Assembly: GCA_015523335.1 (NCBI GenBank) | Contig: WAKM01000031.1 | Location: 1 to 45,542, forward strand | Length of the DNA stretch: 45,542 nt | Source of the DNA: Archaeoglobaceae archaeon | Lineage (GTDB): Archaea; Halobacteriota; Archaeoglobi; Archaeoglobales; Archaeoglobaceae | Reading direction: 5' to 3' | Shown: one piece after another, positions 16,603 to 44,787 of the stretch | Layout: each line of letters starts with the position of its first letter | How positions within the stretch are numbered: position 1 is the first letter of the stretch | Notes under the pieces: generated by a model | The model's input: the letters and a program-made list of their open reading frames with translations, nothing else | Databases searched by the model: none | What the model was told of the DNA's origin: nothing | Made by a program: the position numbers and the translations under genes

Positions 16603-16875
16603 TTACTCCTTCTTAGCCAGTATTATCTCGATTGCCGAAACGTTTGCTTCTCCCTGCTCGCTCTCCACCTTTTCGGTTGAGATCTTTATGTCTTTAACGT
16701 CCACATCCGTTAGGAACCTCTTCCTTACGATCTCTGCCACGTCTACAGCCCTGCTTATGGCTTTACCTCTGGCTTTTATGGCTACTTCCTTTGCTCCGCT
16801 GTTGAACTGCGTCAATACCGCCAACACGTAGTTCATTACCGGCTTGCTACCAACAAACACTGCGTTCTCGGCCAT
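16603..16875 (-). CDS. albA: Alba chromatin protein, paralogue 1
   Basis: This 90-residue DNA/RNA-binding Alba protein coats archaeal chromatin as dimers. It has the [11 protein letters not shown] segment with the lysine that is acetylated in some species, and the [19 protein letters not shown] helix-loop block that contacts nucleic acid. A GAGGTG ribosome site precedes the ATG, and an AT-rich TATA-like element (about 16906-16917) lies further upstream, so this mRNA has a short leader. A second Alba gene is at 40772-41050, with about two-thirds identity by eye. Confidence 0.95.
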
Positions 16876-29897: not shown

Positions 29898-31904
29898 ATG
29901 TGGCTCATAATTGCGGAGAAGGACAAAACTGCAAGAAGAATTGCGCAAATTCTGTTCAGAGATTTTAAAAGACTAAATCGCTACGGCGTAAACTATTACT
30001 TTTCCCCCTCAAATCGTGCCTACATCTTGGGCTTGAAGGGGCACATAGTTGAAGTAGACTTCCCGCCCGAATACAACGACTGGAGACGAACGCCACTCAA
30101 ATCTCTTCTGAGAGCTAAGTTCGTCTGGAGAGTTAAGGAAAAGAACATAGCGAAGTTGTTGGTCGAGCTTGCGAAGGAAGTTGAAAGGGTTACTATCGCT
30201 ACGGACTACGATAGGGAAGGGGAGCTCATAGGCGTTGAAGCTCTGAAGATCATTCGAAAGGTAAATCCGAACGTTAAAGTTGATAGGGTTAGATTCAGCG
30301 CGATAACTCCGGCGGACATAAGGCGGGCATTCGAAAATCCTGTTGAAATCGATTACAACTTAGCAAAATCGGCTGAAGTCAGGCAGAAGATCGATCTGAT
30401 ATGGGGGGCGGTGCTCACCAGATTGCTTTCACTCTCAGCTGGAAAGGTAGGTAAGGACTTTCTAAGCGCGGGCAGAGTTCAGTCTCCGACGTTGAGGCTC
30501 ATAGTTGAGAGGGAGAAGCAGATTCGAGAGTTCAAATCGAAGAAGTTCTGGGAGATATACGTCAAAGTTGGGGGAATCGAAGCCAAGCTTGATAAAAGAT
30601 TCGAGAGCAAAGAGGAAGTTCAGAAGGTTTTGGCATCCATAGGTGATTTTGCAAAAGTTACGAAGTTTGAGAAGAAGGTAGTTGAGGAGAACAAACCGAT
30701 TCCGTTCAACACGACCGAATTTCTGAAGGAAGCTTCCCGATTCATGAGTCCCGACAAGGCGATGAGGATAGCTGAAGAGCTATACATGAGCGGTTACATA
30801 TCGTATCCGAGAACCGACAACACGGTCTATCCTCCTACTCTGAATCTGAGAAGGCTTGTGGAAATGTTCGTCGGAACTGAATTCGATAGGGAAGCAAAGA
30901 TAGTTTTAGCCGGAGACATAGTCCCTTCCAAAGGAAGAAGGGAGACGAAGGATCATCCTCCCATTCATCCCACCGCAGTGGCATCAAAGGAAGAGCTCAG
31001 TAAGGACGAATGGATAATTTACGAACTCGTCGTTAGGAGATTCTTAGCCTCTCTCGCCCCCAAAGCCGTTTGGGAGATTAGGAGAGTTGAACTTTCGGTT
31101 GATGGACTTATGTTTAGAGCATCGGGTAAAAGGCTTATCGAGAGGGGTTGGAGATCGATCTACACATACGTTCAAGCTGAGGAGAATGTAATTCCGGAAT
31201 TTAAGATCGGAGAGGTTATAAAAATCGAAGCCAAGAGGATAGCCGAAAAGAAGACGAAACCGCCTCAGAGATACACCACGGGAAGGCTGATAAAACTCAT
31301 GGAGAAGTTGGGCTTGGGAACTAAATCCACGAGGCACGAGATAATCAAAAAGCTTTACAGCAGGAGATACGTTTACGGAAATCCGCTGAAGCCTACAAAT
31401 ACGGCATTTGCAGTGATAGAGGCTCTGAAAAGAAATGCAGAACTGATAACACTTCCCGACATGACAGCGAAATTGGAGGAGGACATGGATTCGATAGCGG
31501 AGGGAAAGCTGGATGAAAAAACCGTTCTGCTCGAATCGGTAAGGTTTCTGGACAAGATCTTGAGCGATGTTAATACAGACGAGTTGGGCAAGAGCCTGAG
31601 GGAGGGGATCGAAGAGGACAGAAGGAAAGAGCTTGAAAAGAACTCGATAGGGAGGTGTCCGAAGTGCGGCGGAATATTAGTCGTAAAGAAGTTTGAAAAG
31701 CGATTCGTTGGGTGCACCAACTATCCGAACTGCGACTTTACCCTACCCCTCCCCCAGAAGGGCAAAATATACATAACGTCGAAGGTCTGCGAAAAGCACG
31801 GGTTAAAGAAGATAAAGATCAGAACGAAAGATGGAATTTGGAATCTCGGCTGTCCCTACTGCAATTATTTAAGCTGGAAAGAAAAGAAGAAGGATGCTAC
31901 TTGA
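29898..31904 (+). CDS. topA: DNA topoisomerase I (type IA)
   Basis: This 668-residue type IA topoisomerase relaxes negative supercoils. It has a TOPRIM domain (IIAEKDKTA, ATDYDREGELI), the active-site tyrosine Y303 in SYPRTDN, the GLGTKSTR motif, and C-terminal zinc-finger repeats (CPKCGGILVVKK-CTNYPNC and CEKHG-CPYC). I choose ATG 29898 (MWLIIAEK); an earlier start at 29820 would overlap S8e and add a non-homologous tail. Its stop overlaps the stop of the convergent pilin-like gene by 8 bp. Reverse gyrase is not in this window. Confidence 0.94.
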   Translation: MWLIIAEKDKTARRIAQILFRDFKRLNRYGVNYYFSPSNRAYILGLKGHIVEVDFPPEYNDWRRTPLKSLLRAKFVWRVKEKNIAKLLVELAKEVERVTIATDYDREGELIGVEALKIIRKVNPNVKVDRVRFSAITPADIRRAFENPVEIDYNLAKSAEVRQKIDLIWGAVLTRLLSLSAGKVGKDFLSAGRVQSPTLRLIVEREKQIREFKSKKFWEIYVKVGGIEAKLDKRFESKEEVQKVLASIGDFAKVTKFEKKVVEENKPIPFNTTEFLKEASRFMSPDKAMRIAEELYMSGYISYPRTDNTVYPPTLNLRRLVEMFVGTEFDREAKIVLAGDIVPSKGRRETKDHPPIHPTAVASKEELSKDEWIIYELVVRRFLASLAPKAVWEIRRVELSVDGLMFRASGKRLIERGWRSIYTYVQAEENVIPEFKIGEVIKIEAKRIAEKKTKPPQRYTTGRLIKLMEKLGLGTKSTRHEIIKKLYSRRYVYGNPLKPTNTAFAVIEALKRNAELITLPDMTAKLEEDMDSIAEGKLDEKTVLLESVRFLDKILSDVNTDELGKSLREGIEEDRRKELEKNSIGRCPKCGGILVVKKFEKRFVGCTNYPNCDFTLPLPQKGKIYITSKVCEKHGLKKIKIRTKDGIWNLGCPYCNYLSWKEKKKDAT

Positions 31905-33525
31905 ATATCTGAAGAACTCCTATGTAGTCCGTGTATAGTTCAGACGGATACGTAAACCACCACCACCGCCTAGTTACATCGTTTTGAACTACCAGAACTA
32001 TCATCTTCCCGTTTCTGACGTAGTTCTTGATCTGAGTCGAGTTCAGCCCGATTCCGAGCCAAGTCTCGTAAGATGAGCTGGTCGTAGCTATTAGATCATA
32101 CGATCCCTTCGTGTAATTCCAAATGTAGAGCGATTCTCCGTCATACCATCCAATTCCGTAACCGTTCCAGTTCACGTAGGTTTCTATAACGTTCGTCGTG
32201 TTCAGCCCGTAGATCTCAAATCTCTGCGCGGCGTAGTATCCCGAATCGGCTTCGCTTACTAAATATATGCCGTCGTCTTTCGTTATGTTTGCGGTCGGCA
32301 ACGGCACTGTAGGTGTCGAGTTCGTCTTCGGCGGATTTGAAGAAACCTCGTTACCGAACGCGAACAACGCTCCGGGAGTGTTGGCATCGTAGGTAACGCC
32401 GTAGGGGAATTTGAGTCGAACGCCGGTGCTTATAACCGATATTTCATAGAGAACGAATCCGCACGACGCGCTGAAGTTTACCGTGGCATCTCCAGTTGAA
32501 TTCGAGCTAAAAACGACTTTCGCGTAACCGTTTTTGTCGGTGTAAACAAGATTTTTCGGTGTGATTGATCCTACTCCGATCAAGGTAACGTTTACTGGAT
32601 ACCCCCTAACGGGGTTGTTGTATTCGTCGAGAACCTTAACACCCAAAACGATAGATTCGTTGACGTTTATGGTGTATGCGGTGGTCGGATTCGTCGGAAT
32701 TATTCTAAAAGGCTTTGGCTTTTCGACGTTGACATACTGCACGGCTGTAACCGATACTCCTTTGAACAGCAGTGTGTATGACAGCTCAAGTTTAGTTACG
32801 TTTCGATACGTTACCGTAACGATATTGCTACTGCTGTTTACCGTTACGTTGTAACCCATACTCTCAAGCTCCGGTTTAATCTTAGACCAGTAGCTCGGAC
32901 AATCGGTGCTGAAAGTCACTGTGACGTTTTTAGCCAAGACGTATCCACCGTAGGAAACTGGAACTACGACAAAATCTACCGGTTGAGATGAGGTGAACGA
33001 ATTAAACGTCGTATTTATCAGCGGAATTTTTATTTCGTTCTGCGTGAACATCTGCTGGTCGGTAACGGCACCGATAAATCTATCCTCTATAAACCTCAAA
33101 ATGGCTGTGTTCTCTAATAGCAGTTTGTATCCTCTGTTGTAAAAGTAATTCAGATCTATTTCAATGCGATTTGTGGTGTAATTATCCGATCTGAACGTTG
33201 CGGATCCGTTGGGCAGTAGCTCTTCGTAACTCAACTCAATCGTAAATCGCTTTGAAGTTACGGAGGATGCCATGGTAGGAGGAGAAAGCAGAAGTGGATA
33301 TTTCGGATAATTTATACCCAAATCGAGTGTCACCGTGGTTAGCCTGTTGTCCATTATTTCCTTATCGAGGGTTTGAAGTTCTTCGGTAAGCCTGTCGATA
33401 TGCTTAAGTTCCGCATCCTTACACATGCTCGGAACCATCTGAGTTTGGAGTATAGCCAAGAATATCATTAGGGTCAACATCAGGAGTATGAATCCGACCA
33501 AAACCGAGACACCTTTTCTGTTCAT
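31897..33525 (-). CDS. Pilin-like surface protein with Ig-like domain
   Basis: This 542-residue secreted protein has a class III (prepilin) type start: MNRKG followed by the hydrophobic VSVLVGFILLMLTLMIFL, with likely cleavage after Gly5. The mature part is rich in Asn/Thr N-glycosylation sites (NTT, NVT, NST). A middle Ig-like region (about 275-370: GYPVNVTLIGVGSI, TDKNGYAKVVF) is of the invasin/bacterial Ig type. The C-terminal Trp/Tyr-rich part (about 400-540) may be a binding domain. It is the last gene of the pilus unit; at this length it is more likely a minor pilin or adhesin than the main subunit. Confidence 0.65.
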   Translation of the reverse strand: MNRKGVSVLVGFILLMLTLMIFLAILQTQMVPSMCKDAELKHIDRLTEELQTLDKEIMDNRLTTVTLDLGINYPKYPLLLSPPTMASSVTSKRFTIELSYEELLPNGSATFRSDNYTTNRIEIDLNYFYNRGYKLLLENTAILRFIEDRFIGAVTDQQMFTQNEIKIPLINTTFNSFTSSQPVDFVVVPVSYGGYVLAKNVTVTFSTDCPSYWSKIKPELESMGYNVTVNSSSNIVTVTYRNVTKLELSYTLLFKGVSVTAVQYVNVEKPKPFRIIPTNPTTAYTINVNESIVLGVKVLDEYNNPVRGYPVNVTLIGVGSITPKNLVYTDKNGYAKVVFSSNSTGDATVNFSASCGFVLYEISVISTGVRLKFPYGVTYDANTPGALFAFGNEVSSNPPKTNSTPTVPLPTANITKDDGIYLVSEADSGYYAAQRFEIYGLNTTNVIETYVNWNGYGIGWYDGESLYIWNYTKGSYDLIATTSSSYETWLGIGLNSTQIKNYVRNGKMIVLVVQNDVTRRWWWFTYPSELYTDYIGVLQIFK

Positions 33526-33529
33526 GCTG

Positions 33530-35404
33530 TCACCTTAATAGTATCTTAAACACTATATAGGTTGCCATCAAAAACACGTAGGAATGCTTCAGTCCGGACT
33601 CGATCTTGCCCTCTCCTATAACCCCCGCTATTATTCCCGAAAACAGTCCGACCATCAGCGATATCTCGAAGAAAACTTCCTTTATTGTATCGATATTCAT
33701 AGTAAACGTTATGGAACCCATGGCGGTCGTATTCACCGCAAAAGCCGAGAGAAAGCTCTTGATGACGATATACACAACGAACAGGAATATAAATATCGAC
33801 ATGTATGTTATAATAATATATGTAAACATGTAGTTTTTAATTCTTTTCGAAAATCTAACTTCGGAATCCGCATATCTCGCAACGGTTATGAACGCGTCCT
33901 TGAAAGTTGGCGAAACCTCCAACGCCTTCGTTATTATCGGAATTATCTTCGCTATCAAGTCGCTTTTAATTCTAACCCCCAAAACGGCAAAAGCTCTGTG
34001 GATGGTCGTTCCCCACTCAATTTTTCTCCTTACTACGTTAATTTCCTTCGAAATTATTCCGATTTCGGACGATGAAATAACGTTAAGGGCTTCCAAGATG
34101 TTAAGTCCGGCTTCGTTTAGAACAGCAAGTTCTCTGAAAAGGTTGGGTATCTTCTCTTCTATTTTCTTGATAGTCCTACCCCTAAGCTCTACCAAAATTA
34201 TCAAAGGAATTGCAACAGCGGACACCGTCAAAATTAGAGATCGCTCAAGGTTTAAAAATTTTGAAGCTACGGCAAATGTGATAATAGCGATCAACGCAAA
34301 ATGAAAGCTTAGAATTCTAAATTGAAGTGTATAAATGGTTTTCTCTTTGAAGGGATACACGACGATCTTTTTCAATTTTTTCAAAAGTCTTCCGAATTCG
34401 TCTATCTTGAAGGTTTCAGCCCTACCGCTCCTAACACCTACTATCGGCTTTTCCACTTCTTCGAGTTCTTCCTCGATCTTCACCTTCGGTGTTGGCAGAC
34501 TGGACTTGATAAGATACACGAAAGCTACGGTTGCCACCGGAAGAACGAAAGCTATTGCGAGTCGGTATAGGTTTATGACGTTCTCTCCGATCAACTGCAT
34601 TACAACGAGGACGATGAGTAGAAAAAGGGGAAGCAGAACGAATATCGCAATGTAGACTTCAGCCATAATTCCCAAAAAGTCTATGTATGATTCGAAGCTT
34701 ACCTCCTGCTCCTCAAGCAACTCCTCGGACTTACCCCTAAGAAATTCCGTGAGTCTGCCTCCGCTACTCATTACGAATATAAGATCGTCCAAGAACGCCG
34801 CGAGCTTTTCGCTCGGTGTTGTGTCCCTAACAAAACGCATGCTATCGAACAGATCGTGCTTGAAGTTCTCAACAAGATCAACGATAATTCTAAACTCCCT
34901 GCTTAGCTCTCCGCACATAACTTTAGATTCGGCTATGCACTTGATGATGTCGTAAACTCGGACACCTCCAACAGCCATTCCGAACATCATGTTTACGGCA
35001 TGGGGTAGGTAGAGGTCGATCTCGTTTTTTCTTTTCGCGGCTATGAAAAAGGGGTAAGTCAGAACAAGATAGTGAACGAACTTAAATGAAATAATTCCCA
35101 ACAACGAAGCACCCAATGCGACGTAAACTATGCTTAAAATCTTAAAATTTCGTATGATTATTTCCGGGGGTAGAATCCGAGCTATAAGGGGTGTTACCTT
35201 ACCGAACGGAATTAAAATAGTGAAGATCAAAATTCCCAGCACCGCTCCTACCATCGCCGATACTGCGGAATATACGAAAGCTAAGGCGAGGTATCTTTGA
35301 GTGGTAATCGGCATTCGCGCTCTAACTATGGCTTTGGATAGATCCTCAAATTTTTCAGGCTTTTCCCTTATTAGTTTGCTATATCTACGGATTAGAGCTT
35401 TCAA
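33530..35404 (-). CDS. Duplicated GspF/TadC-like membrane platform protein
   Basis: This 624-residue membrane protein has two copies of the type II/IV secretion F-domain: one at about 120-290, the other at about 420-590. About eight or nine hydrophobic segments surround them. It is the inner-membrane platform that couples the ATPase motor to pilus assembly. A fused double platform is common in archaeal type IV pilus and Tad-like loci. The gene overlaps the end of the ATPase gene by about 20 bp and is followed 5 bp later by the pilin-like gene, so the three are co-expressed. Confidence 0.85.
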   Translation of the reverse strand: MKALIRRYSKLIREKPEKFEDLSKAIVRARMPITTQRYLALAFVYSAVSAMVGAVLGILIFTILIPFGKVTPLIARILPPEIIIRNFKILSIVYVALGASLLGIISFKFVHYLVLTYPFFIAAKRKNEIDLYLPHAVNMMFGMAVGGVRVYDIIKCIAESKVMCGELSREFRIIVDLVENFKHDLFDSMRFVRDTTPSEKLAAFLDDLIFVMSSGGRLTEFLRGKSEELLEEQEVSFESYIDFLGIMAEVYIAIFVLLPLFLLIVLVVMQLIGENVINLYRLAIAFVLPVATVAFVYLIKSSLPTPKVKIEEELEEVEKPIVGVRSGRAETFKIDEFGRLLKKLKKIVVYPFKEKTIYTLQFRILSFHFALIAIITFAVASKFLNLERSLILTVSAVAIPLIILVELRGRTIKKIEEKIPNLFRELAVLNEAGLNILEALNVISSSEIGIISKEINVVRRKIEWGTTIHRAFAVLGVRIKSDLIAKIIPIITKALEVSPTFKDAFITVARYADSEVRFSKRIKNYMFTYIIITYMSIFIFLFVVYIVIKSFLSAFAVNTTAMGSITFTMNIDTIKEVFFEISLMVGLFSGIIAGVIGEGKIESGLKHSYVFLMATYIVFKILLR

Positions 35405-36959
35405 CGCTCATCACCTCTTCGAAAGCCTTTTCGGGACTTCGGTAGTACTCGTGGATAAGCTTGGTAACCGCTTTGTAGTGTCTGATTCCCTTGGCGTTCA
35501 TAAGCTCTAAGAACTCCTTTCTTCTTTTTAATTCCTCTATAACCTCAAACGGCTCCATACCCATTATCTGGGCGATCTTCTCAAGTTTTTTGGAGTCTCC
35601 AATTTGGACGAACTTATCTTCTATTGGATCCCACTTGAAGAGCGGATTTACGAGCAGATTCTTGTTGGCCGGATCTATTCCGAAGATTTCGTTGACCTCC
35701 CTCGCTCTTCTCTTTCTGATCCCCCTCCTAACCCACATGAACTGCACTATGACCGCATCTAAAAACTGAATCATAACCCTCGGAACGTTTAAAGGATCGT
35801 TCTCCAACCTGTAAACTAATTGATTAACATCTCCGGCGTGCAGAGTAGAATACGAAGCGTGTCCGGTTGACATAGCCTGAAACAGCGTCTGAGCTTCTCG
35901 TCCTCTTACCTCTCCGACTATGATGTAATCTGGTCTCTGCCTCAGAGCAGCCCTAAGCAGATCATACATGTCTATTTCGTGCCCCTCAATACCCATCCTC
36001 GTAACTCCGGCAATCCAGTTTTCATGATAGAGCTGGATCTCTCTTGTATCCTCAATCGAGATAACCTTTGCTTCTGGAGGTATAAACATCATCAGAGCGT
36101 TCATCGTCGTTGTTTTTCCTGCCGCGGTTTCTCCGATAACCATGAAGCTCATCTTATTCTCTACGAGTAACCAGAAATAGGCTAATATTGCTGAATTCAT
36201 AGTTCCAAATCTCATAAGATCAATAGGTGTGAATGGCTCTACTCTGAACTTTCTGATGGTAAAACTGCTACCTCTCGTCGTAATTTCAGTTCCGTAGGTA
36301 GCTTGCAGTCTGCTACCATCCGGCAAAGTCGCATCTATAAGCGGGTTCGCATACGATATGTGCTTACCAGATTTCTGGCAGAGTAAAAGGACGAGAGAAT
36401 CCAGCTGTTCTTTGGAAAACTTTACGTTCGTTTTCAAGCTACCGAACTTTCTGTGAAAGACGTAAATCGGAATATCGTAACCGTCGCACGAGATGTCCTC
36501 CAAATACGGATCGTTCATAAAACATTCGAGTGGACCGAAGCCGAAGAAATCCCGAAAGAGAAAGTAGAGGATCTTGAGCGAGAGATTGCTTTTAATCTTT
36601 ATTGCGTATTCGTCCATGAGCTCGTCCAAAGTGTCCACGATTACCTTTATTCTCGTCTGCACATCCCTACCGTAATCCTTCAGAACGAGAATTCGCTTTA
36701 GATCGTTGTATATAATGGACATCAGTTCGTATTCGTCTTCCGCAAGCTGAGGCTCTATTACGTAATACATTTGCTGTAACGTGTCCAAATTTTTTCTAAT
36801 CTGAACTTTAAGAAACTCTGGAACGATCCAGTAATCTTCAACAACTTCTTCGTTTTCCGGAACTTCGACTTCCAATATCGGCTTTTTGACTTCATCGTAA
36901 ATTTCCAATAAGATTTTATAGTGATCTGGCAGTGATATCTTAAACAGTTCCGATACCAT
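35385..36959 (-). CDS. Type IV pilus/secretion ATPase (GspE/TadA family)
   Basis: This 524-residue ATPase powers pilus assembly. It has a Walker A GETAAGKTT, an ISIEDTREIQL Asp box, a Walker B (DYIIVGEVRGREA) and a His-box (TGHASYSTLHA), all typical of archaeal GspE-like motors. I choose ATG 36959 (MVSELFKI) because TTTTAAAA at 36982-36989 is 26 bp upstream; 36965 is the alternative ATG. This promoter shows that the motor-platform-pilin unit starts its own transcript after the vWA gene. Confidence 0.92.
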   Translation of the reverse strand: MVSELFKISLPDHYKILLEIYDEVKKPILEVEVPENEEVVEDYWIVPEFLKVQIRKNLDTLQQMYYVIEPQLAEDEYELMSIIYNDLKRILVLKDYGRDVQTRIKVIVDTLDELMDEYAIKIKSNLSLKILYFLFRDFFGFGPLECFMNDPYLEDISCDGYDIPIYVFHRKFGSLKTNVKFSKEQLDSLVLLLCQKSGKHISYANPLIDATLPDGSRLQATYGTEITTRGSSFTIRKFRVEPFTPIDLMRFGTMNSAILAYFWLLVENKMSFMVIGETAAGKTTTMNALMMFIPPEAKVISIEDTREIQLYHENWIAGVTRMGIEGHEIDMYDLLRAALRQRPDYIIVGEVRGREAQTLFQAMSTGHASYSTLHAGDVNQLVYRLENDPLNVPRVMIQFLDAVIVQFMWVRRGIRKRRAREVNEIFGIDPANKNLLVNPLFKWDPIEDKFVQIGDSKKLEKIAQIMGMEPFEVIEELKRRKEFLELMNAKGIRHYKAVTKLIHEYYRSPEKAFEEVMSVESSNP

Positions 36960-36981
36960 TATCATTATAATGGTTTCATCA

Positions 36982-37025: not shown

Positions 37026-39638
37026 TTAGGAGGGTGTTACCGGTCTTATTCTTACTGGAACATCCTTCCACAGTAATAATGTAGTCGTTGTATTATTTAT
37101 TGCGTTCACTTTGATTGTGTAATCTCCAGCCGCGTTAGGAATGAACACCGCCGATATTATTCCACTGCTGGTGTTGGTTATCACCAAACCGTTAACAGTT
37201 ACGTTACCATCTGTCGCATTTATCAATTTGCCTTTAATATTTATGACCTCCCCAATGTATAGCGGAATTGGATAGCCTACGGACCCCTTCCAATTTATAG
37301 TTAGGTTATCGAGTTTTCTTATGTCGTCTATTACGGGATAGAAGGTAACGTTTGTTTTGTTGATATTAATGCTCGTTCCGTTCAGATAAACACCTTTTTC
37401 GGTGTAGAACGTAACGTTTGCAGTAACGTTTTGAGTTAGGTTGTTCGTGAATGTATACTGAGGAGAAATCTCCAAAACCCAAGCTGTATCGTTCTTTCTG
37501 AAGTATGTGAGTATGAAGCTGTCGTTGGTGTAATCGATGACCTTTCCGTCAATCTCCATCTTAAATCCGACGTCTTTTGGCGGTGTTTTATCCAAATACG
37601 TTATTATGTATAGATTCTTAACACGACTTACCAATACTTTGCCGGGAGTCTGCTGATATGTAGTAGTCCTGTTATATACACTTATAACTGCGCTCGCAGA
37701 ACCACTTAGACCGTTGTTGCTCGTCACATCAAAAGTCAGTTTTTCGTTAACGTATGTCTGTCCGCCAGATACGAAATTACGCAACGGTGTCCAGCTGACG
37801 ATAACAGTCGTATTGTTAAGGTTATACTTAGCTATATTGCTGTTTGTAGAATTGATTTCAACAGGTGATCCCGATATAGTCACATTGGAACTGTCTATCG
37901 GATAATTTGCTATCACCTTTATAGTTACTGTTTCGCCTTCTGTAATGTTATTCCTGCTTGGAACAACCTCAACTATCAACGGTGCCTTCTTATCGAACAC
38001 TTGAACACTTACGGATGTTGAGTTGATGCCGTATGGCGGACTGTAAACCGTTATATTTATCGTAGCGGTTGTATTCTTATTGGTGTAATTGAACAGGGGA
38101 GTCCATACCATATTTGCCGTGCTGTTGTTCACGGTCAAAGTAACTATGCTGTTAGCGTTGGTTATGGGCGGTGTTGCGTTGTATGTAATTTTACTGATCG
38201 GATGAGTAGATGTTATGTTTATTCCCACAGTCTCGCCTTCCCAAATCGCAGTCTTATTAGGTGTTGCTGTAACTATCAGATTGCCAGAGAAGTTCATCGT
38301 TACATTGAATTGCACGGAATGTAAACCTGAGCGGTCGTAATACGTTATGTTTCCAATTGCGACGGTCTGCTTTCCAGCTATCGTCGAGTTAACCCAAACT
38401 GTAACGCTCGTATTGTTCTTAAGTTCGTTCCAGTGCCATGCAACAACGTTACCGCTCACGGACGTCGGGCTTGGAATTGCATGATCGAACCTGACGTTCG
38501 GATTGTCGAAGTTCAAGGTCAACGTTACGTTCGTAGCGTAAACCGTTATTTCTTTATAAATTTCGTCGTAGATCTCCTTGAGATCCCCCTCGCTTGCGGC
38601 GTAGTAGTATTTACCTCCCGTAATCTCTGCTATCTGCTTTAGCAAACTTTCATTGACGGCACCGAAACCTATCGTGTATATCCTATATCCCAACGGTTTC
38701 GCGATATACCTTGCAACATCTATTGGGCTTATACCGTTGTTCCAGCCTCCATCGGTGAGCAGTATTATAGCCTTTACGGACTGCCTGCTGGAAGCATTTA
38801 AGATGTCGCATGCTTTCTTGAGTCCCTCGCCTAAAGCCGTTAGCTCGTATACGCGTGTAAATCTTCTACAGCAACAGCCCATACATATCCAGTCGTCGAG
38901 GGTTAGGCTGTCGATCGTGCTGTTAAGTGCAATCTTGTCGTCGGTTAGATTCAGCTTAATCTCGGTCGTGTCTACTGAACCCACTCTTACTACAGCCGCT
39001 CTGTCATCATCTTTAAGCAAGCCAACGAAATACTTAGCGGTATCCTTTGCGGCGTCTATTCTTGTCGGCGGTAGAGCTATTATCAGAGTTCTTATTTCAG
39101 TTCTTGGCATTCCGTAAAGTTTTGCGTATACGGTGTGAGTTCCAGCCGAGACATTTTCAAAAATAAAGCTTGCTGGATCACCGCATGTGCTCCATCCCAT
39201 GCACATGTATCCCCAATATTGGCTCGGCGTTGTGTTATCCAAAGCTACATCTATTCTGTCGTAACCCATACTGCTATCGTTGTAGTAGTCTTCCAACGGA
39301 TAGCTCAGCAAAATTTCTACGTTGGACGTTTTATCTAATGTGAAGTTCGCGATGGGAACCCACATTCCATAGCGATGTATAACATTCGTAATGTTTACCG
39401 TGACAGGGCCGTAGATAACCTTACTGTATCTGCCCATCGAAGGTGAGCAGTCTACTGCAAGAACTACATCAACCGGTATATGCTTAACCGCCGGATTCAC
39501 GGTTAAATTTACGGTAAAACCTGAGGCTTTACCTACGACTCCTTGGGAGTATACGTTACTCGGAACTCTTAGAACTTCCGCGTTGACTACTGTTAACACT
39601 GCTGACAATACCAATACGGCAAGTATTATTTTTTTCAA
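37026..39638 (-). CDS. Secreted vWA-domain surface protein, multi-Ig
   Basis: This about 870-residue protein has a Sec signal peptide (MKKIILAVLVLSAVLTVVNA) and no clear C-terminal anchor. The von Willebrand A domain has its MIDAS DxSxS as DCSPS at residues 63-67, then a T and a Asp later (TALGEGL, LLTDGGWNNG). About 120 residues with Cys and Trp-rich stretches (CMGWSTCGDP) are inserted between the first MIDAS strand and the rest of the vWA fold. A second Cys cluster (ICMGCCCRR) follows. The rest (about 380-870) is repeated beta-sandwich domains dense in N-glycosylation sites. I choose TTG 39638 with a GGAGGTGG ribosome site 6 bp upstream over the GTG at 39647. It is a likely cell-surface adhesin. 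Confidence 0.78.
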   Translation of the reverse strand: MKKIILAVLVLSAVLTVVNAEVLRVPSNVYSQGVVGKASGFTVNLTVNPAVKHIPVDVVLAVDCSPSMGRYSKVIYGPVTVNITNVIHRYGMWVPIANFTLDKTSNVEILLSYPLEDYYNDSSMGYDRIDVALDNTTPSQYWGYMCMGWSTCGDPASFIFENVSAGTHTVYAKLYGMPRTEIRTLIIALPPTRIDAAKDTAKYFVGLLKDDDRAAVVRVGSVDTTEIKLNLTDDKIALNSTIDSLTLDDWICMGCCCRRFTRVYELTALGEGLKKACDILNASSRQSVKAIILLTDGGWNNGISPIDVARYIAKPLGYRIYTIGFGAVNESLLKQIAEITGGKYYYAASEGDLKEIYDEIYKEITVYATNVTLTLNFDNPNVRFDHAIPSPTSVSGNVVAWHWNELKNNTSVTVWVNSTIAGKQTVAIGNITYYDRSGLHSVQFNVTMNFSGNLIVTATPNKTAIWEGETVGINITSTHPISKITYNATPPITNANSIVTLTVNNSTANMVWTPLFNYTNKNTTATINITVYSPPYGINSTSVSVQVFDKKAPLIVEVVPSRNNITEGETVTIKVIANYPIDSSNVTISGSPVEINSTNSNIAKYNLNNTTVIVSWTPLRNFVSGGQTYVNEKLTFDVTSNNGLSGSASAVISVYNRTTTYQQTPGKVLVSRVKNLYIITYLDKTPPKDVGFKMEIDGKVIDYTNDSFILTYFRKNDTAWVLEISPQYTFTNNLTQNVTANVTFYTEKGVYLNGTSININKTNVTFYPVIDDIRKLDNLTINWKGSVGYPIPLYIGEVINIKGKLINATDGNVTVNGLVITNTSSGIISAVFIPNAAGDYTIKVNAINNTTTTLLLWKDVPVRIRPVTPS

Positions 39639-39639
39639 G

Positions 39640-39867
39640 TTAACCACCTCCTATCAGCGTATCTTCAATAAGATACTGCATCGGATTAAACGGATCCGTT
39701 CCGTGCTGGGTTTCGATTATGTTTGGAACGCCGTCTCCGTCTATGTCCTCATCTATCGCGTTCGGAATTCCGTCCTTATCCTTGTCGCCAATTTTCTTTG
39801 CCGTCAACTTTAAGCTACCGATCGTTACAAATGTTAACAGCAACAGCAAAGCCAACAACCACCTCAT
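39640..39867 (-). CDS. Small secreted calcium-binding (TSP3-type) protein
   Basis: This 75-residue protein has an N-terminal hydrophobic signal (LLALLLLLTFVTIGSL) and one thrombospondin type 3-like calcium loop region (DKDKDGIPNAIDEDIDGDGVPN-type, with the acidic residues spaced as in EF-hand loops). The stop lies directly ahead of the vWA start, and the GGAGGTGG site for that gene is inside its end, so the two are coupled. An AGGTGAT precedes its own ATG at 39867 by 5 bp. It may act as a surface linker. Confidence 0.7.
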   Translation of the reverse strand: MRWLLALLLLLTFVTIGSLKLTAKKIGDKDKDGIPNAIDEDIDGDGVPNIIETQHGTDPFNPMQYLIEDTLIGGG

Positions 39868-40229: not shown

Positions 40230-40775
40230 ATGGATTGGGTGTTTATAGAAGATGAACTCGAATATGACGGTTCTCAATTAAAATCTCTGTGGGCTTACAG
40301 CCTTTTGGGTATTAAAGAGGACAGCATAATTTCCTTCATCGGACCTTGCAACGTAAAACGTGAGCACATGGTTGATTACGAAGATTATGCATCCGGCTAT
40401 TCTATATATTCGCCAAAAATGTTGCATTTTATAGTCGAACACTTCGATGAGGTTAGCTTGAGGCTGATCTACACGAGGCAGAGGCTCTTAGTAACCATCG
40501 CAAGAGATACGATCGATCCGGCAATTGAAAGAGTTGGAGACGATCTCTACTGGAACGGAAAAAAGCTCAGCGTTAGCATAGCTACGATTTCGCCGATTTC
40601 GGCAAAGATTCATTTTGGAATAAATATAGAGAGTCCCGAAGGCTACGCCTGCCTAAGAGAGATAGGTGTAAACGACGTTAAGGAACTCGCAATAGAGATT
40701 TGCAGAAGATACACGGCGGAAATAATGGATATAGAAGAAGATTTAAGAAAAACAAGACCCATCGAAAGCTTTTAA
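40230..40775 (+). CDS. DUF366 family protein
   Basis: This 181-residue protein matches the conserved archaeal DUF366 family (start [21 protein letters not shown], then [15 protein letters not shown] and [16 protein letters not shown]). No function is established. A Cys at the FIGPCNV position, a conserved block of acidic residues and the [12 protein letters not shown] strand suggest an enzyme. I choose ATG 40230 from the TATA position. Its stop overlaps the stop of the convergent Alba gene by 3 bp. Confidence 0.8.
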
Positions 40776-41050
40776 GATGAAGTCTTGGCCAATACAATTT
40801 CGATCGTCGAGACGTTTACCTTCCTTCCCTGCTCCGAATCCAGCTCCTCGGTGTCGATCTTTATGCTCTTCACTGTAACGTTCGGCAGGAATCTGTTTCT
40901 TACGATCTCTGCCACGTCTACAGCCCTGCTGATAGCCCTACCTCTCGCTTTAATTGCTACCTCTTCCGCTCCCTCATTAAACTGCGTCAATGTAGCCAAT
41001 ACGTAGTTCATTACCGGCTTGTTGCCTACATAGACTACGTGCTCCGTCAT
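40772..41050 (-). CDS. albA2: Alba chromatin protein, paralogue 2
   Basis: This 92-residue second Alba protein shares the [16 protein letters not shown] and [19 protein letters not shown] blocks with the gene at 16603-16875. Alba paralogues can form heterodimers that change DNA bridging. I choose ATG 41050 (MTEHVV) because a GGTGAT site ends 5 bp upstream; the frame from 41059 would start inside that site. A 32-bp stretch (40899-40930) is identical to 16724-16755 in the first gene. Confidence 0.95.
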
Positions 41051-41101
41051 GGCGATCACCCAAGGTATGCAAAAAAGTGTTTGCTATTTAAACTTTGCTC
41101 A

Positions 41102-41794
41102 CTATGGTATGTAGCCGAGGTAGTACAGCGTAGAAAGAACAAGCACTATCGCGGTTAAAATTATCGCAACATCTATTACTTTAACTCCTATACCTTTTTC
41201 CTCTTCCGTCGGAATTCCAGCGAGATGTATCGCCTTCTCGGCCACATTGAGGTCTTCATCGAGGTATCCTTTTTCAATTAACCTTTCGATAGCCCTGCTT
41301 ATGACTATCTCCGGATAACCGGTAGCTTTGGAGATCCTTCGGATGTTCGCTCCGTATCTAAGTACGGATTTCAGAACGTTTATCTCGACATCCGAAAGGT
41401 ATGGTTGCTCTTTAAACTTTGGCTTTATTTCCGCTTTAGGCTTAACCTTGGCTGACTTCGGCTCCTCTTTAATAGTTTTTTCTTCTTTAACCTCTACATG
41501 TGGGGATATCGATTCGACAACCTTTTCATCTGAAACAGCCTTCTCAAGTTCGGATACGCCTACGCTCAAATTTTCAATTCTCTGCTTGATCCTTTCGAGT
41601 CTTTCAATCTGAGCCTGCCTATCCTCTTTAGACTCTTCGTCGAGAGCTCTCTTCTTGATAGTTTCGCGAACCTGCTTGACGATACTTTCGATTCTGTCAT
41701 CTTTCCTATCCTCACCCCCTCTTTTCTTTACGATAAAAGATTCATCGTCATCGAGTAATGCGTTCAATATCTTCTTTTCATCGTTCACACCCAT
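41102..41794 (-). CDS. Winged-helix protein with C-terminal membrane anchor
   Basis: This about 230-residue protein has a charged, coiled N-terminal half (Lys/Glu-rich), a winged-helix domain at about 135-190 (LSDVEINVLKSVLRYG, then PEIVISRAIERLIEKGYL), and a single C-terminal transmembrane helix (VAIILTAIVLVLSTLYYLGY). So a DNA-binding domain would be held at the inner face of the membrane. It begins at the end of the MinD-like gene and is co-transcribed with it. Its helix-turn-helix and RLIEKGYL-DEDL end resemble those of the smaller protein at 44479-44787. Function unknown. Confidence 0.7.
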   Translation of the reverse strand: MGVNDEKKILNALLDDDESFIVKKRGGEDRKDDRIESIVKQVRETIKKRALDEESKEDRQAQIERLERIKQRIENLSVGVSELEKAVSDEKVVESISPHVEVKEEKTIKEEPKSAKVKPKAEIKPKFKEQPYLSDVEINVLKSVLRYGANIRRISKATGYPEIVISRAIERLIEKGYLDEDLNVAEKAIHLAGIPTEEEKGIGVKVIDVAIILTAIVLVLSTLYYLGYIP

Positions 41795-42549
41795 CACCAT
41801 CCGAAGAGGTATTTCAGCTTACCATAAGGCTTGACTTCCACCTTACTGCCGACTATCTTCTTTGCAAGCAGTAGAAACTCCTTGGAAACTTTCGAATCCG
41901 GTTTTTTTATCGTTACCGGCACACCCTCTTTCCAGCATTCGGTTATGAGCTTAGATTCCCTTATTATACCTATCGTTTCGGCACCTATGGCTTTCTCTGC
42001 ATAGTCGATCATCTTCTTTTCTCCCTTGTATCTGTTCACTATGATACCCCTTACCGCGATGTCCGATATGTCCGCGATCTTTCTAACTTTGTGTGCGTCC
42101 GATATGGCTGTTTTTTCCGGATTTATCACGATGCAGATTTTATCCGAGCTTAGCATCGGAATCATTGCATACTTGCTCAATCCAGCCGCTACGTCCAATA
42201 CAATAAAGTCATAATCATGTTTAAGACTTTCGATTATATCCTTCAATTTCTCCATGTCTATCTCTTCGAGTGCTTTTACGGACGTTGAAGCTGGAATAAT
42301 ATCGAGTCTTCCCACGTTCTTAGCTCTGATTCTGTAGATAGAATCTTCGAGATAGTTTATATCTCTCAGAGCGTCCAAAAGAGATACTAAGGGATCTTCT
42401 ATTCCGAAGAAAGTGTGAAGATTAGGAAGTGCTATGTCGCAATCGATTACGAGGGTTTTTCCGAATTTGGACAGCATGACCGATAGATTCGCCGCCACGG
42501 TTGTTTTTCCGACTCCACCCTTACCGGAGCATATTGCGATTACTGGCAT
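41794..42549 (-). CDS. MinD/ParA-like ATPase with C-terminal amphipathic tail
   Basis: This 251-residue deviant Walker A ATPase starts MPVIAICSGKGGVGKTT, the MinD/ParA signature with the extra lysine, and has DCDIALPNLH and FIVLDVAAGL (switch II) motifs. The last residues (KPYGKLKYLFGW) closely resemble the MinD membrane-targeting tail (FLKRLFG) that inserts in the membrane when the ATPase dimerises. The start at ATG 42549 is 25 bp from a TATA-like tract. It sits with two membrane-anchored winged-helix proteins and a surface protein. A role in positioning a surface structure, as TadZ/CpaE or archaeal MinD homologues do, is inference. Confidence 0.82.
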   Translation of the reverse strand: MPVIAICSGKGGVGKTTVAANLSVMLSKFGKTLVIDCDIALPNLHTFFGIEDPLVSLLDALRDINYLEDSIYRIRAKNVGRLDIIPASTSVKALEEIDMEKLKDIIESLKHDYDFIVLDVAAGLSKYAMIPMLSSDKICIVINPEKTAISDAHKVRKIADISDIAVRGIIVNRYKGEKKMIDYAEKAIGAETIGIIRESKLITECWKEGVPVTIKKPDSKVSKEFLLLAKKIVGSKVEVKPYGKLKYLFGW

Positions 42550-42570
42550 TTTCTCACTATCGGCTAAATG

Positions 42571-42585
42571 ATAAAATATATATTT
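42571..42585. promoter_or_regulatory. Bidirectional AT-rich core promoter
   Basis: ATAAAATATATATTT holds TATA-like boxes for both directions: one centred about 25 bp before ATG 42549 (minus, MinD-like), the other about 26 bp before ATG 42608 (plus, surface protein). The two divergent starts are only 58 bp apart. Confidence 0.5.
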
Positions 42586-42607
42586 TCTTTTCATCATAGT
42601 AAAGTCG

Positions 42608-44476
42608 ATGCCAAAAGTTAGCATTGCAATAGCATTAGCCCTGATCGTTCTGATCGTATTTCCGGTTTCGGCTCTAACCTCAGCAGATTTTGACGTTAAA
42701 ATAGTTACGTTCGTTCACGATTATAACAAATACATCACGAGATGGAACGATGTCTTCAGACAAGGTGAAACTCTAAAGCTCTATTTGGGTGTCGGAAACC
42801 TGAATAAAAATATAGGTGCAGTTGCCATAGATTTCGTAATATTCGTCAAGGATCCGAACAATTACGTCGTTTACAAGAAGGTCGTCGAAATAAGGAAGCT
42901 CGGATACATCGATCACGTTTACACTGTTGTGGACATTCCAATTGGAGAGAACTGGCTTGACGGAAAATACACAATTGAGGCGTATGCGTTTGACGTTCTG
43001 AACTACACGGCTGTCCTAAAGAGCTACACAAAGTATAACATCTTTTCCGCAACTGGTGGAGGAGAGATAAAGACTATAAGTAGGAAGGATGCGCCCTACG
43101 TTAAGAAGGAGATAACGTTCTACGTTAATTCAAATGCGGATACCGTTCCTCCGAATAGGTTCGTTATATTCGATTCTCAGTTTGAATCCCGAATACTTCC
43201 AGTCAACGTTCCGAACAAGCTCGAAGTTTCCGTTTTGAACAATTTCGACAAAGAGGGTGAGATAAAGATCGGGCTAAAGGTTGACGGTAAGGTAGTGGAA
43301 ACTAAGGTAGTCGACTTGAAGGGTTATGAAGTCAAAAGAATTGGATTTACCGTTCCTCCGCTTTCGAAGGGAACCCACAGGATTGAGATCGTTGCTTTCG
43401 ATAACCACGTCAAGTTCGCCGATACGCCGCCGATATTCATAAAGCCCCTACTTTACGATAAATCGATACTACTCGGAAAGGTTTACGATGGATGCATAAT
43501 ATACACCCCAAACAATTACGTGCTCGGTAGCGTCGGCATATCGGAGATAAATAACGTAAATGTGGAATCGGCGGTAAGTGTATTTAACGAGAACGGTTAT
43601 CTGATGAACAGAGAGTCCGCGGAGAGAGTTTTTACGAACATATTAGCCTATACATACATAAACTACGTAAAAACTGGAACAATTTCGGTTGCCCTACTTA
43701 AGGGAAGCGATGAAAGGGCGGAAGTCGTTCTTCCGAGGTTACTTAAATACGTAAAGAAGAAGACGAAAGCTCCGATACGATACTTGGGCGTCAGAGACTA
43801 CTACCACCTCGGCGATGTTGACGTTTTGATCTACGTTGGAAACAGCGTTCCGAAGCTCAGTATGCTCGATTACTTCTTCAGGAATGGCGGCGTTCTCGTT
43901 ATAGATAACACGGATTACTGGAAAGACCTATCCAGTTCAATCGAGGCTCAAGCGTGCTTCATGAAGAACTGGAGCGGTTTGTCCTATTCGGATGAGCTTT
44001 ACAAGTCCTACTACGATTTCAACGTTAATAAGGTGGTTACCATAACCGTCAAGGAGCATATACCTCCGAAGTTCGTGTATTCCGATCTGAACGTGGATAA
44101 GTTCATTACGGACGTCGGAACACCTGTGACGATTTCGTTTAAGGTTAGGAACATCGGCGGGACTGGAAAGGAAAAGGTCGAAGTTAAGGTAAACAACGAA
44201 ATCGTGTTCAGCAAGGAGATCGAGCTCAAGAAAGGTGAAGAAAAGATCATTTCGTTCAAATACACACCGAAGGTAGAGGGGAGCTACAAAGTTCAGATAG
44301 TCGGAACTGATTTGATCAAGGTATTCTTCGCGAAGAGTAAAACGGAAGTTTCCGCAGAGGGAATTAAGATTACGCCGACTCCCGTTAAAGAGAAAAAGAA
44401 GGGTGCTGGACTCGTCGTAGGTTCTGCGGCGTTATTGGCAGTCTTGGTGATAATTCGAATGCTCATGCGTGATTGA
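42608..44476 (+). CDS. Secreted CARDB-type surface protein with membrane anchor
   Basis: This 622-residue protein has an N-terminal signal (VSIAIALALIVLIVFPVSAL), several beta-sandwich regions, and near the end a CARDB-like domain (about 490-575: VDKFITDVGTPVTISFKVRN, GTGKEKVEVKV, FKYTPKVEGSYKVQIVG). A Lys/Pro-rich linker and a C-terminal transmembrane helix (GLVVGSAALLAVLVIIRMLM) anchor it. A middle part (about 290-440) is a Rossmann-like region (VDVLIYVGNSVPKL, GGVLVIDNTDYW). It shares a bidirectional promoter with the MinD-like gene, so it may be the surface partner of the cassette. Not a named family to my knowledge. Confidence 0.65.
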   Translation: MPKVSIAIALALIVLIVFPVSALTSADFDVKIVTFVHDYNKYITRWNDVFRQGETLKLYLGVGNLNKNIGAVAIDFVIFVKDPNNYVVYKKVVEIRKLGYIDHVYTVVDIPIGENWLDGKYTIEAYAFDVLNYTAVLKSYTKYNIFSATGGGEIKTISRKDAPYVKKEITFYVNSNADTVPPNRFVIFDSQFESRILPVNVPNKLEVSVLNNFDKEGEIKIGLKVDGKVVETKVVDLKGYEVKRIGFTVPPLSKGTHRIEIVAFDNHVKFADTPPIFIKPLLYDKSILLGKVYDGCIIYTPNNYVLGSVGISEINNVNVESAVSVFNENGYLMNRESAERVFTNILAYTYINYVKTGTISVALLKGSDERAEVVLPRLLKYVKKKTKAPIRYLGVRDYYHLGDVDVLIYVGNSVPKLSMLDYFFRNGGVLVIDNTDYWKDLSSSIEAQACFMKNWSGLSYSDELYKSYYDFNVNKVVTITVKEHIPPKFVYSDLNVDKFITDVGTPVTISFKVRNIGGTGKEKVEVKVNNEIVFSKEIELKKGEEKIISFKYTPKVEGSYKVQIVGTDLIKVFFAKSKTEVSAEGIKITPTPVKEKKKGAGLVVGSAALLAVLVIIRMLMRD

Positions 44477-44478
44477 AT

Positions 44479-44787
44479 ATGTTATCAGAGCTTGAGGAGG
44501 ACGTTCTTGAGGCTATAATTTTAGGAAAGAGGAGAGTGGATCAAATCGCAGAATTCTGCGGAATTCCGGAATTCACCGTGAACGAGATCGTCAAGCGATT
44601 GATCGAGAAGGGGTATATATCCGAAGAGTTATTTCCAACTGTAAAAGCATACAAAGATTTAAGGTGGATAGACAGGACGCATCTTCCCGCATTTTACGGT
44701 GAAAATTTTAGGAGGTTTTTTAAAGCAATTCTCGATATTATTATAATTTTGATAATATTGTTTTTAATAAAAAATGCTTTGATTTAA
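44479..44787 (+). CDS. Small winged-helix protein with C-terminal membrane anchor
   Basis: This 102-residue protein has a winged-helix domain (about 1-48: LSELEEDVLEAIILGKRRV, PEFTVNEIVKRLIEKGYI) and a C-terminal hydrophobic helix (ILDIIIILIILFLIKNAL). The layout matches the longer protein at 41102-41794. The start at ATG 44479 follows the surface protein gene stop by 2 bp; a TTG at 44473 overlaps that stop. Its stop lies just before tmk. The pair of anchored winged-helix proteins flanking the MinD-like ATPase and the surface protein is unusual. Confidence 0.7.
   Translation: MLSELEEDVLEAIILGKRRVDQIAEFCGIPEFTVNEIVKRLIEKGYISEELFPTVKAYKDLRWIDRTHLPAFYGENFRRFFKAILDIIIILIILFLIKNALI

Follow-up and report, generated by a model that had tools for sequence, protein, structure and literature searches.

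Organisation of the MinD and CARDB locus

Within a 45,542-nt stretch of Archaeoglobaceae DNA (the window; contig C31 of host genome G000, which is 1.40 Mb and 99% complete), we analysed four neighbouring genes that encode a MinD-family ATPase, a CARDB-type surface protein and two membrane-anchored winged-helix proteins, WH1 and WH2. An open reading frame (ORF) check of the window recovered all four where the initial annotation of this DNA had placed them. WH1 (41102..41800, minus strand; 232 aa) lies directly downstream of the ATPase gene (41794..42549, minus strand) and the two gene ends overlap by 7 bases. The longest ATPase ORF opens at 42624, but its closest orthologues start at the position equivalent to 42549, which is therefore the probable start and yields 251 aa. 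Transcribed in the opposite direction are the CARDB gene (42608..44476, plus strand; 622 aa) and WH2 (44473..44787, plus strand; 104 aa, TTG start), which overlap by 4 bases. The 58-bp region between the two pairs (42550..42607) contains an AT-rich palindromic sequence, AAAATATATATTTT, recognised by eye, and is likely a shared divergent promoter.

The ATPase belongs to the MinD/ParA family, since it matches PF13614 at 79.5 bits (cut-off 27) and its deviant Walker A motif, SGKGGVGKTT, is invariant in 17 aligned sequences. Its score on the archaeal MinD profile TIGR01969 (minD_arch) was 190.1 bits, just below the cut-off of 201.75, and it is therefore a divergent MinD. The C-terminal tail, KPYGKLKYLFG, is conserved among orthologues. 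This had been described as an amphipathic, MinD-type tail, which our analysis did not bear out: its hydrophobic moment in one 11-residue window (0.164) was matched by 73% of shuffled sequences. In a MinD tree, the Archaeoglobi ATPases of this locus form one group (support 97/99), adjoined by a pair from two genomes outside Archaeoglobi, G363 and G389. The tree also contains a further MinD-like ATPase encoded by G000 (L003).

The CARDB protein has a signal peptide, Ig-like domains, an alpha/beta domain, a CARDB domain and a C-terminal membrane helix with a cytoplasmic Arg, and its AlphaFold2 model has a mean predicted local distance difference test score (pLDDT) of 84. The alpha/beta domain (residues ~300-470; 43505..44017, plus strand) is apparent in the model, matches DUF4159 weakly and does not occur in homologues outside Archaeoglobi. 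The CARDB domain (residues 502-565; 44111..44302, plus strand) matches PF07705 at 34.3 bits (cut-off 22.7). These features agree with the earlier description of a secreted, membrane-anchored CARDB-type protein. A Foldseek search with the model returned generic beta-sandwich matches with low TM-scores, which indicate no function.

WH1 and WH2 are tail-anchored paralogues

WH2 combines a winged helix-turn-helix (wHTH) domain (residues 3-55; 44479..44637, plus strand), which matches PF01978 (TrmB) at 29.1 bits (cut-off 25.6), with a C-terminal membrane helix (residues 86-104; 44728..44784, plus strand) seen in the sequence and in the alignment. This is as expected for the second, smaller winged-helix protein of the initial annotation. 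The wHTH domain carries a net negative charge in the window and is neutral to acidic, with a net charge of -7 to 0, in 17/17 orthologues. In Geoglobus-like genomes WH2 is shortened to 82-90 aa.

Profile searches with WH1 gave sub-threshold wHTH matches only (PF01978, 18.5 bits against a cut-off of 25.6). Both of the elements ascribed to WH1, the winged helix and the C-terminal membrane helix, were nevertheless visible in the sequence and in its AlphaFold2 model, which is of modest confidence (mean pLDDT 65) and consists of a helix (residues 5-16), a long helix (33-92), a disordered linker, the wHTH domain (137-193) and a membrane helix (202-227). In an alignment of 21 orthologues, an N-terminal charged motif of the type KKIxDxLMDDDE (residues 8-21; 41738..41779, minus strand) is conserved, with L15 and D18 present in at least 90% of sequences. 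The membrane helix (residues 204-222; 41135..41191, minus strand) includes a conserved IDVAI, in which D210 and I213 are invariant. The wHTH domain (residues 134-193; 41222..41401, minus strand), supported by profile matches, alignment and model, appears dispensable: it is lost or largely lost in genera g7, g8, g9 and g11, in G016 of genus g4 and in family f2. The resulting orthologues, of 67-94 aa, still have the charged motif at the N-terminus and the membrane helix.

Among 394 genomes in a wider sample, full-length WH1 (E < 1e-39) was found only in Archaeoglobi, G363 and G389, and in the latter two it carries the motif, the winged helix and the membrane helix. Because these two genomes lie outside Archaeoglobi, the alignment is most simply explained by an ancestral winged helix that was later lost. 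A lineage-specific insertion of the wHTH into WH1 was considered and dropped for the same reason. BLAST comparisons of WH1 and WH2 within the window gave E-values of 3e-8 and 4e-6, and the best score overall (3e-13) was between WH2 and the Archaeoglobus veneficus WH1. The two proteins are thus paralogues, and the RLIEKGY stretch that the initial annotation had pointed out in both reflects homology.

The locus consists of two separable modules

CARDB orthologues are present in 24/59 Archaeoglobi genomes and are full length except at a contig end (G056). Wherever the contig allowed the position to be read, a protein with a C-terminal membrane helix was encoded directly 3′ of MinD (24/24 loci) and 3′ of CARDB (23/23 loci), in most cases overlapping or a few bases away. 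Less clean cases are included in these counts, i.e. an ORF of only 54 aa after CARDB in L093, across a 79-base gap, and two MinD loci in which the partner ORF overlaps by 142 bases. In agreement, the membrane helices of WH1 and WH2 are conserved throughout the orthologue alignments. WH1 and WH2 are conserved tail-anchored partners of MinD and CARDB, respectively.

In Geoglobus-like (g8) and Ferroglobus-like (g7) genomes, MinD-WH1 is distant from CARDB-WH2, and the locus therefore comprises two modules. A single fixed four-gene cassette was rejected on this basis. Of the conserved neighbourhood first proposed, the two pairs stand and the four-gene order does not.

Both modules lie beside cytochrome nanowire genes in some lineages

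In most other Archaeoglobi, CARDB-WH2 adjoins two further genes. One encodes an archaeal signal peptidase I (cl3; TIGR02228 above cut-off) and, outside the genus of the window, is mostly found 3′ of WH2. The other, convergent gene encodes a protein with six transmembrane (TM) helices (cl4; L093:11843-12619, and G000:C22:22548-23267 in the window's genome), for which there was no match in Pfam or NCBIfam. In g12 and G055 (L081-L083 and L089), a run of pilin-like genes (cl29, cl19, cl44, cl43 and cl28) sits on the side of cl4 where Geoglobus-like genomes carry nanowire cytochromes.

Multiheme cytochrome genes surround cl3 and cl4 in g7, g8, g9 and f2. They include cl5, a membrane-associated pentaheme cytochrome (5-6 CxxCH motifs, ~205 aa), and cl8, which has 4-5 CxxCH motifs in ~230-260 aa; a 22-29 heme protein is also found nearby in g7 and g8. 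The cl8 query matched a single Protein Data Bank (PDB) entry, 8e5g_A (E 8e-50), which is the A. veneficus nanowire, and cl8 is referred to here as the extracellular cytochrome nanowire (ECN) subunit. G020, which we take to be A. veneficus, encodes exactly the 8E5G sequence, in the run ECN, ECN paralogue, cl5. According to a review, a cytochrome filament of A. veneficus has been solved (PMC12954529).

These cytochrome genes are close to the cassette genes in Geoglobus- and Ferroglobus-like genomes, G032, G055 and G056. In G056 the cl5 and MinD genes share 4 bp, and in Geoglobus- and Ferroglobus-like genomes cl5 is a neighbour of CARDB. The most complete runs occur in G389 and G363, both archaea that carry methyl/alkyl-coenzyme M reductase (MCR). 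On one strand, G389 (L199) encodes four ECN subunits, a 9-heme cytochrome, the signal peptidase, cl4, CARDB, MinD and WH1, and G363 (L195) encodes cl5, a lipoprotein, ECN, the signal peptidase, an 11-heme cytochrome, cl4, CARDB, MinD and WH1. The window's genome also encodes tetraheme cytochromes of the A. veneficus (AvECN) type, on contigs C29, C33 and C39.

Two further features of the cytochrome genes were observed. The cl5 gene of the window's genome (G000:C47; L137:9016-10085), with five CxxCH motifs, one CxCH and a hydrophobic C-terminal tail, overlaps a small gene for a lipoprotein-like product; homologues of this small gene (cl45) are also found with cl5 in G363 and in f7 genomes. In addition, nanowire-type cytochromes (L123, L138:6286-7065, L142:9805-10593 and others) share a (G/S)QH-like motif just after the N-terminal hydrophobic stretch, and this may be where the dedicated signal peptidase cuts.

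CARDB and nanowire genes co-occur across genomes

Among the 59 Archaeoglobi genomes, 22 have both CARDB and ECN, 34 have neither, two have CARDB only and one has ECN only (Fisher 7e-13, ignoring kinship). Two of the discordant genomes are incomplete: G043 (68% complete), which together with G056 has CARDB only, and G016 (72% complete), which has ECN only. The other genes behaved similarly, with CARDB and cl5 found together in 22 genomes with three mismatches, CARDB and the signal peptidase giving 23/1/0/35 (both, CARDB only, peptidase only, neither) and CARDB and the cassette MinD giving 23/1/3/32 in the same order. Within g8, G030 lacks all of the genes that its sisters carry; within g4, MinD, cl5 and ECN are present in G016 but all absent from G015 and G017.

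In the 394-genome sample, a manual count of matches to the N-terminal domain gave 27 genomes outside Archaeoglobi with a CARDB homologue that is shorter and lacks the alpha/beta domain, and 24 of these also have ECN (Fisher 1e-24, ignoring kinship). The cl4 and ECN genes were each found in 59 genomes, with mostly identical sets, and cl4, a family unnamed in the domain databases, is thus a possible marker for nanowire makers. Outside Archaeoglobi, 8/11 genomes examined encode MCR, which would fit methane- or alkane-metabolising lineages. Three genomes of ~1.0-1.1 Mb, G063 (f8) and G081 and G115 (f18), have cl4 and a weak match to the nanowire subunit but no CARDB match, and possibly carry a reduced version of the system.

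A proposed role in nanowire assembly and placement

The link between the MinD/CARDB genes and ECN genes is well supported, both by the neighbourhoods and by co-occurrence. We therefore favour, with moderate confidence, the view that these genes belong, as a dispersed component, to the archaeal ECN apparatus, with MinD and its membrane-anchored partner controlling the site or timing of nanowire construction. In ParA/MinD systems the ATPase gene commonly lies close to genes for the cargo, and the partner proteins carry a charged peptide at the N-terminus (PMC10241942). By analogy, WH1 fits as the MinD partner, having a charged N-terminal motif and a downstream position in every testable locus. 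WH1 would dock on the MinD dimer, probably through this motif, and would supply MinD with a membrane anchor, which may be why the MinD tail has no convincing amphipathic helix. Together, MinD and WH1 would mark, or would restrict, the places on the membrane where a nanowire base is built. This base probably includes the single-pass CARDB protein, with its large extracellular part outside and WH2 beneath it, as well as the 6-TM protein cl4 and the cytochrome cl5, and the dedicated signal peptidase cl3, probably also of the base, would mature the secreted cytochromes. From the neighbourhoods we infer that the two modules act in one machine, with CARDB, WH2, cl4, cl3 and cl5 in a single base complex, and that its output is nanowire placement, number or timing.

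A bolder proposal, which we judge somewhat short of an even bet, is a dedicated and previously undescribed nanowire assembly and placement machine, built from CARDB, the 6-TM family, the pentaheme base cytochrome and the signal peptidase, with MinD and the tail-anchored winged-helix partners as further parts in Archaeoglobi and two other lineages. MinD would then set where or how many nanowires are made, as a new cargo class for ParA/MinD proteins. In the literature searched, which did not include the primary nanowire paper, no paper linked MinD to cytochrome nanowires, and parts of this neighbourhood may have been described before.

Several observations weigh against the nanowire reading. G024 (90% complete) and G034 (81%) carry MinD-WH1, yet neither ECN nor CARDB was detected in them. 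Orthology of the cassette MinD to the G363 and G389 proteins has only moderate support (74/53; 80% of bootstraps), the separation from the nearest paralogue being weak. Inspection of the f7 loci revealed ECN, cl4, peptidase and CARDB genes with no adjoining MinD, and MinD is therefore not essential to ECN. G000 itself carries its cytochrome, peptidase and cl4 genes on contigs other than that of the window. Finally, the WH1 N-terminal motif has a strongly acidic stretch, whereas a positive charge has been described for the peptides of known partners (PMC10241942).

Alternative roles for the MinD and CARDB modules

The nearest competitor, which we consider unlikely, is that MinD-WH1 serves type IV pili or the archaellum, in the manner of FleN/MinD, and that the cytochrome link is indirect, e.g. 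through shared surface biology. A type IV pilus (T4P) locus (31897-36965, minus strand) lies ~4 kb from the cassette and stays near it in the window's genus. Together with the region upstream of it (37026-39867), it encodes a secretion ATPase (T2SSE, PilB3_C), a TadC-like T2SSF protein and a protein whose signal peptide is class III-like, and then a von Willebrand factor A (vWA) surface protein and a small protein with TSP3 repeats. FleN/MinD ATPases (arCOG00589) have been assigned to T4P (Makarova 2016; PMC4858521), and pilin-like genes adjoin cl4 in g12 and G055. However, such pilin neighbours are confined to some lineages, with nanowire cytochromes in their place in g7, g8, g9, f36 and f37, T4P genes do not adjoin the cassette outside these pilin-bearing lineages and the window's genus, and the other MinD-like ATPase of G000 (L003) could serve pili instead. 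Elsewhere in the window, two Alba paralogues are encoded (16603-16875 and 40772-41059, both minus strand).

Improbable, in our estimate, is membrane-tethered transcription control, in which WH1 and WH2 would bind DNA and be retained at the membrane or freed from it by MinD or CARDB. This was the core of the idea put forward in the initial annotation. It draws on the ArnR-like layout of both proteins, on the above-threshold TrmB match of WH2 and on the ancestral winged helix that WH1 retains in G363 and G389. Against it, many genera have lost the WH1 wHTH while keeping the N-terminal motif and the membrane helix, none of the 17 WH2 orthologues has a basic DNA-binding domain, and WH2 is cut down in Geoglobus-like genomes. 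The loss of one domain and the acidity of the other make DNA binding unlikely as the core function and fit protein docking, so a transcription role for WH1 and WH2 is weakly supported. What stands of the original idea is that MinD is paired with a winged-helix protein anchored in the membrane and that the pair is linked to a surface structure, which the neighbourhoods and co-occurrence identify as the ECN.

Least probable is a role for both modules in secretion or maturation of surface cytochromes, by powering or timing the cleavage of signal peptides and delivery, instead of placement. In its favour are the peptidase gene beside WH2 and within the G363 and G389 runs and the (G/S)QH-like motif of ECN-type subunits. 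Against it, f7 clusters keep peptidase and ECN without MinD, which is therefore not needed for cytochrome maturation, and most MinD proteins whose function is known work in positioning or in the control of assembly (PMC10241942).

Nanowires conduct electricity and may serve in mineral respiration and in the electron exchange of methane-oxidising archaea. For the assembly, anchoring and placement of archaeal cytochrome nanowires, the analysis provides a list of candidate genes: MinD, WH1, CARDB, WH2, cl3, cl4 and cl5. If the nanowire reading is correct, ParA/MinD positioning ATPases gain a new kind of cargo and an orphan MinD gains a partner.

Comparison with known systems

ArnR and ArnR1 are membrane-bound archaeal regulators with a winged helix and C-terminal membrane helices, and are linked to surface structures. 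WH1 and WH2 share the winged helix and C-terminal membrane helix, but their helix domain is acidic or lost and their genes are translationally coupled to MinD or CARDB. The AvECN filament (PDB 8E5G) was reportedly solved by Baquero et al. in 2023. Nearly all genomes that carry the CARDB gene also encode AvECN-type tetraheme subunits. For the genes of the window, a part in assembly or placement is proposed.

In anaerobic methanotrophic archaea (ANME), a signal peptidase and an '8x TMH' protein are found with multiheme cytochrome maturation genes, according to the passages of Chadwick et al. that deal with these genes, and the '8x TMH' protein is also noted there in Geoglobus and Ferroglobus (PMC9012536). 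These may be cl3 and cl4, although cl4 has ~6 TM helices by hydropathy. MinD, CARDB and the wHTH protein are not named in those passages and would set the present genes apart from the ANME set.

The ATPase shares a deviant Walker A motif with known ParA/MinD systems (MinDE, FlhG, ParC and McdAB; PMC10241942) and with MinD2 and MinD4 of Haloferax (PMC11588486). As in such systems, it has a coupled downstream partner with a charged N-terminus and its gene lies near the presumed cargo. In Haloferax, HVO_0596 follows MinD2, and deletion of HVO_0596 had no phenotype (PMC11588486). Unlike these systems, the presumed cargo here is a cytochrome nanowire apparatus, and the partner has a tail anchor and a wHTH domain that can be missing.

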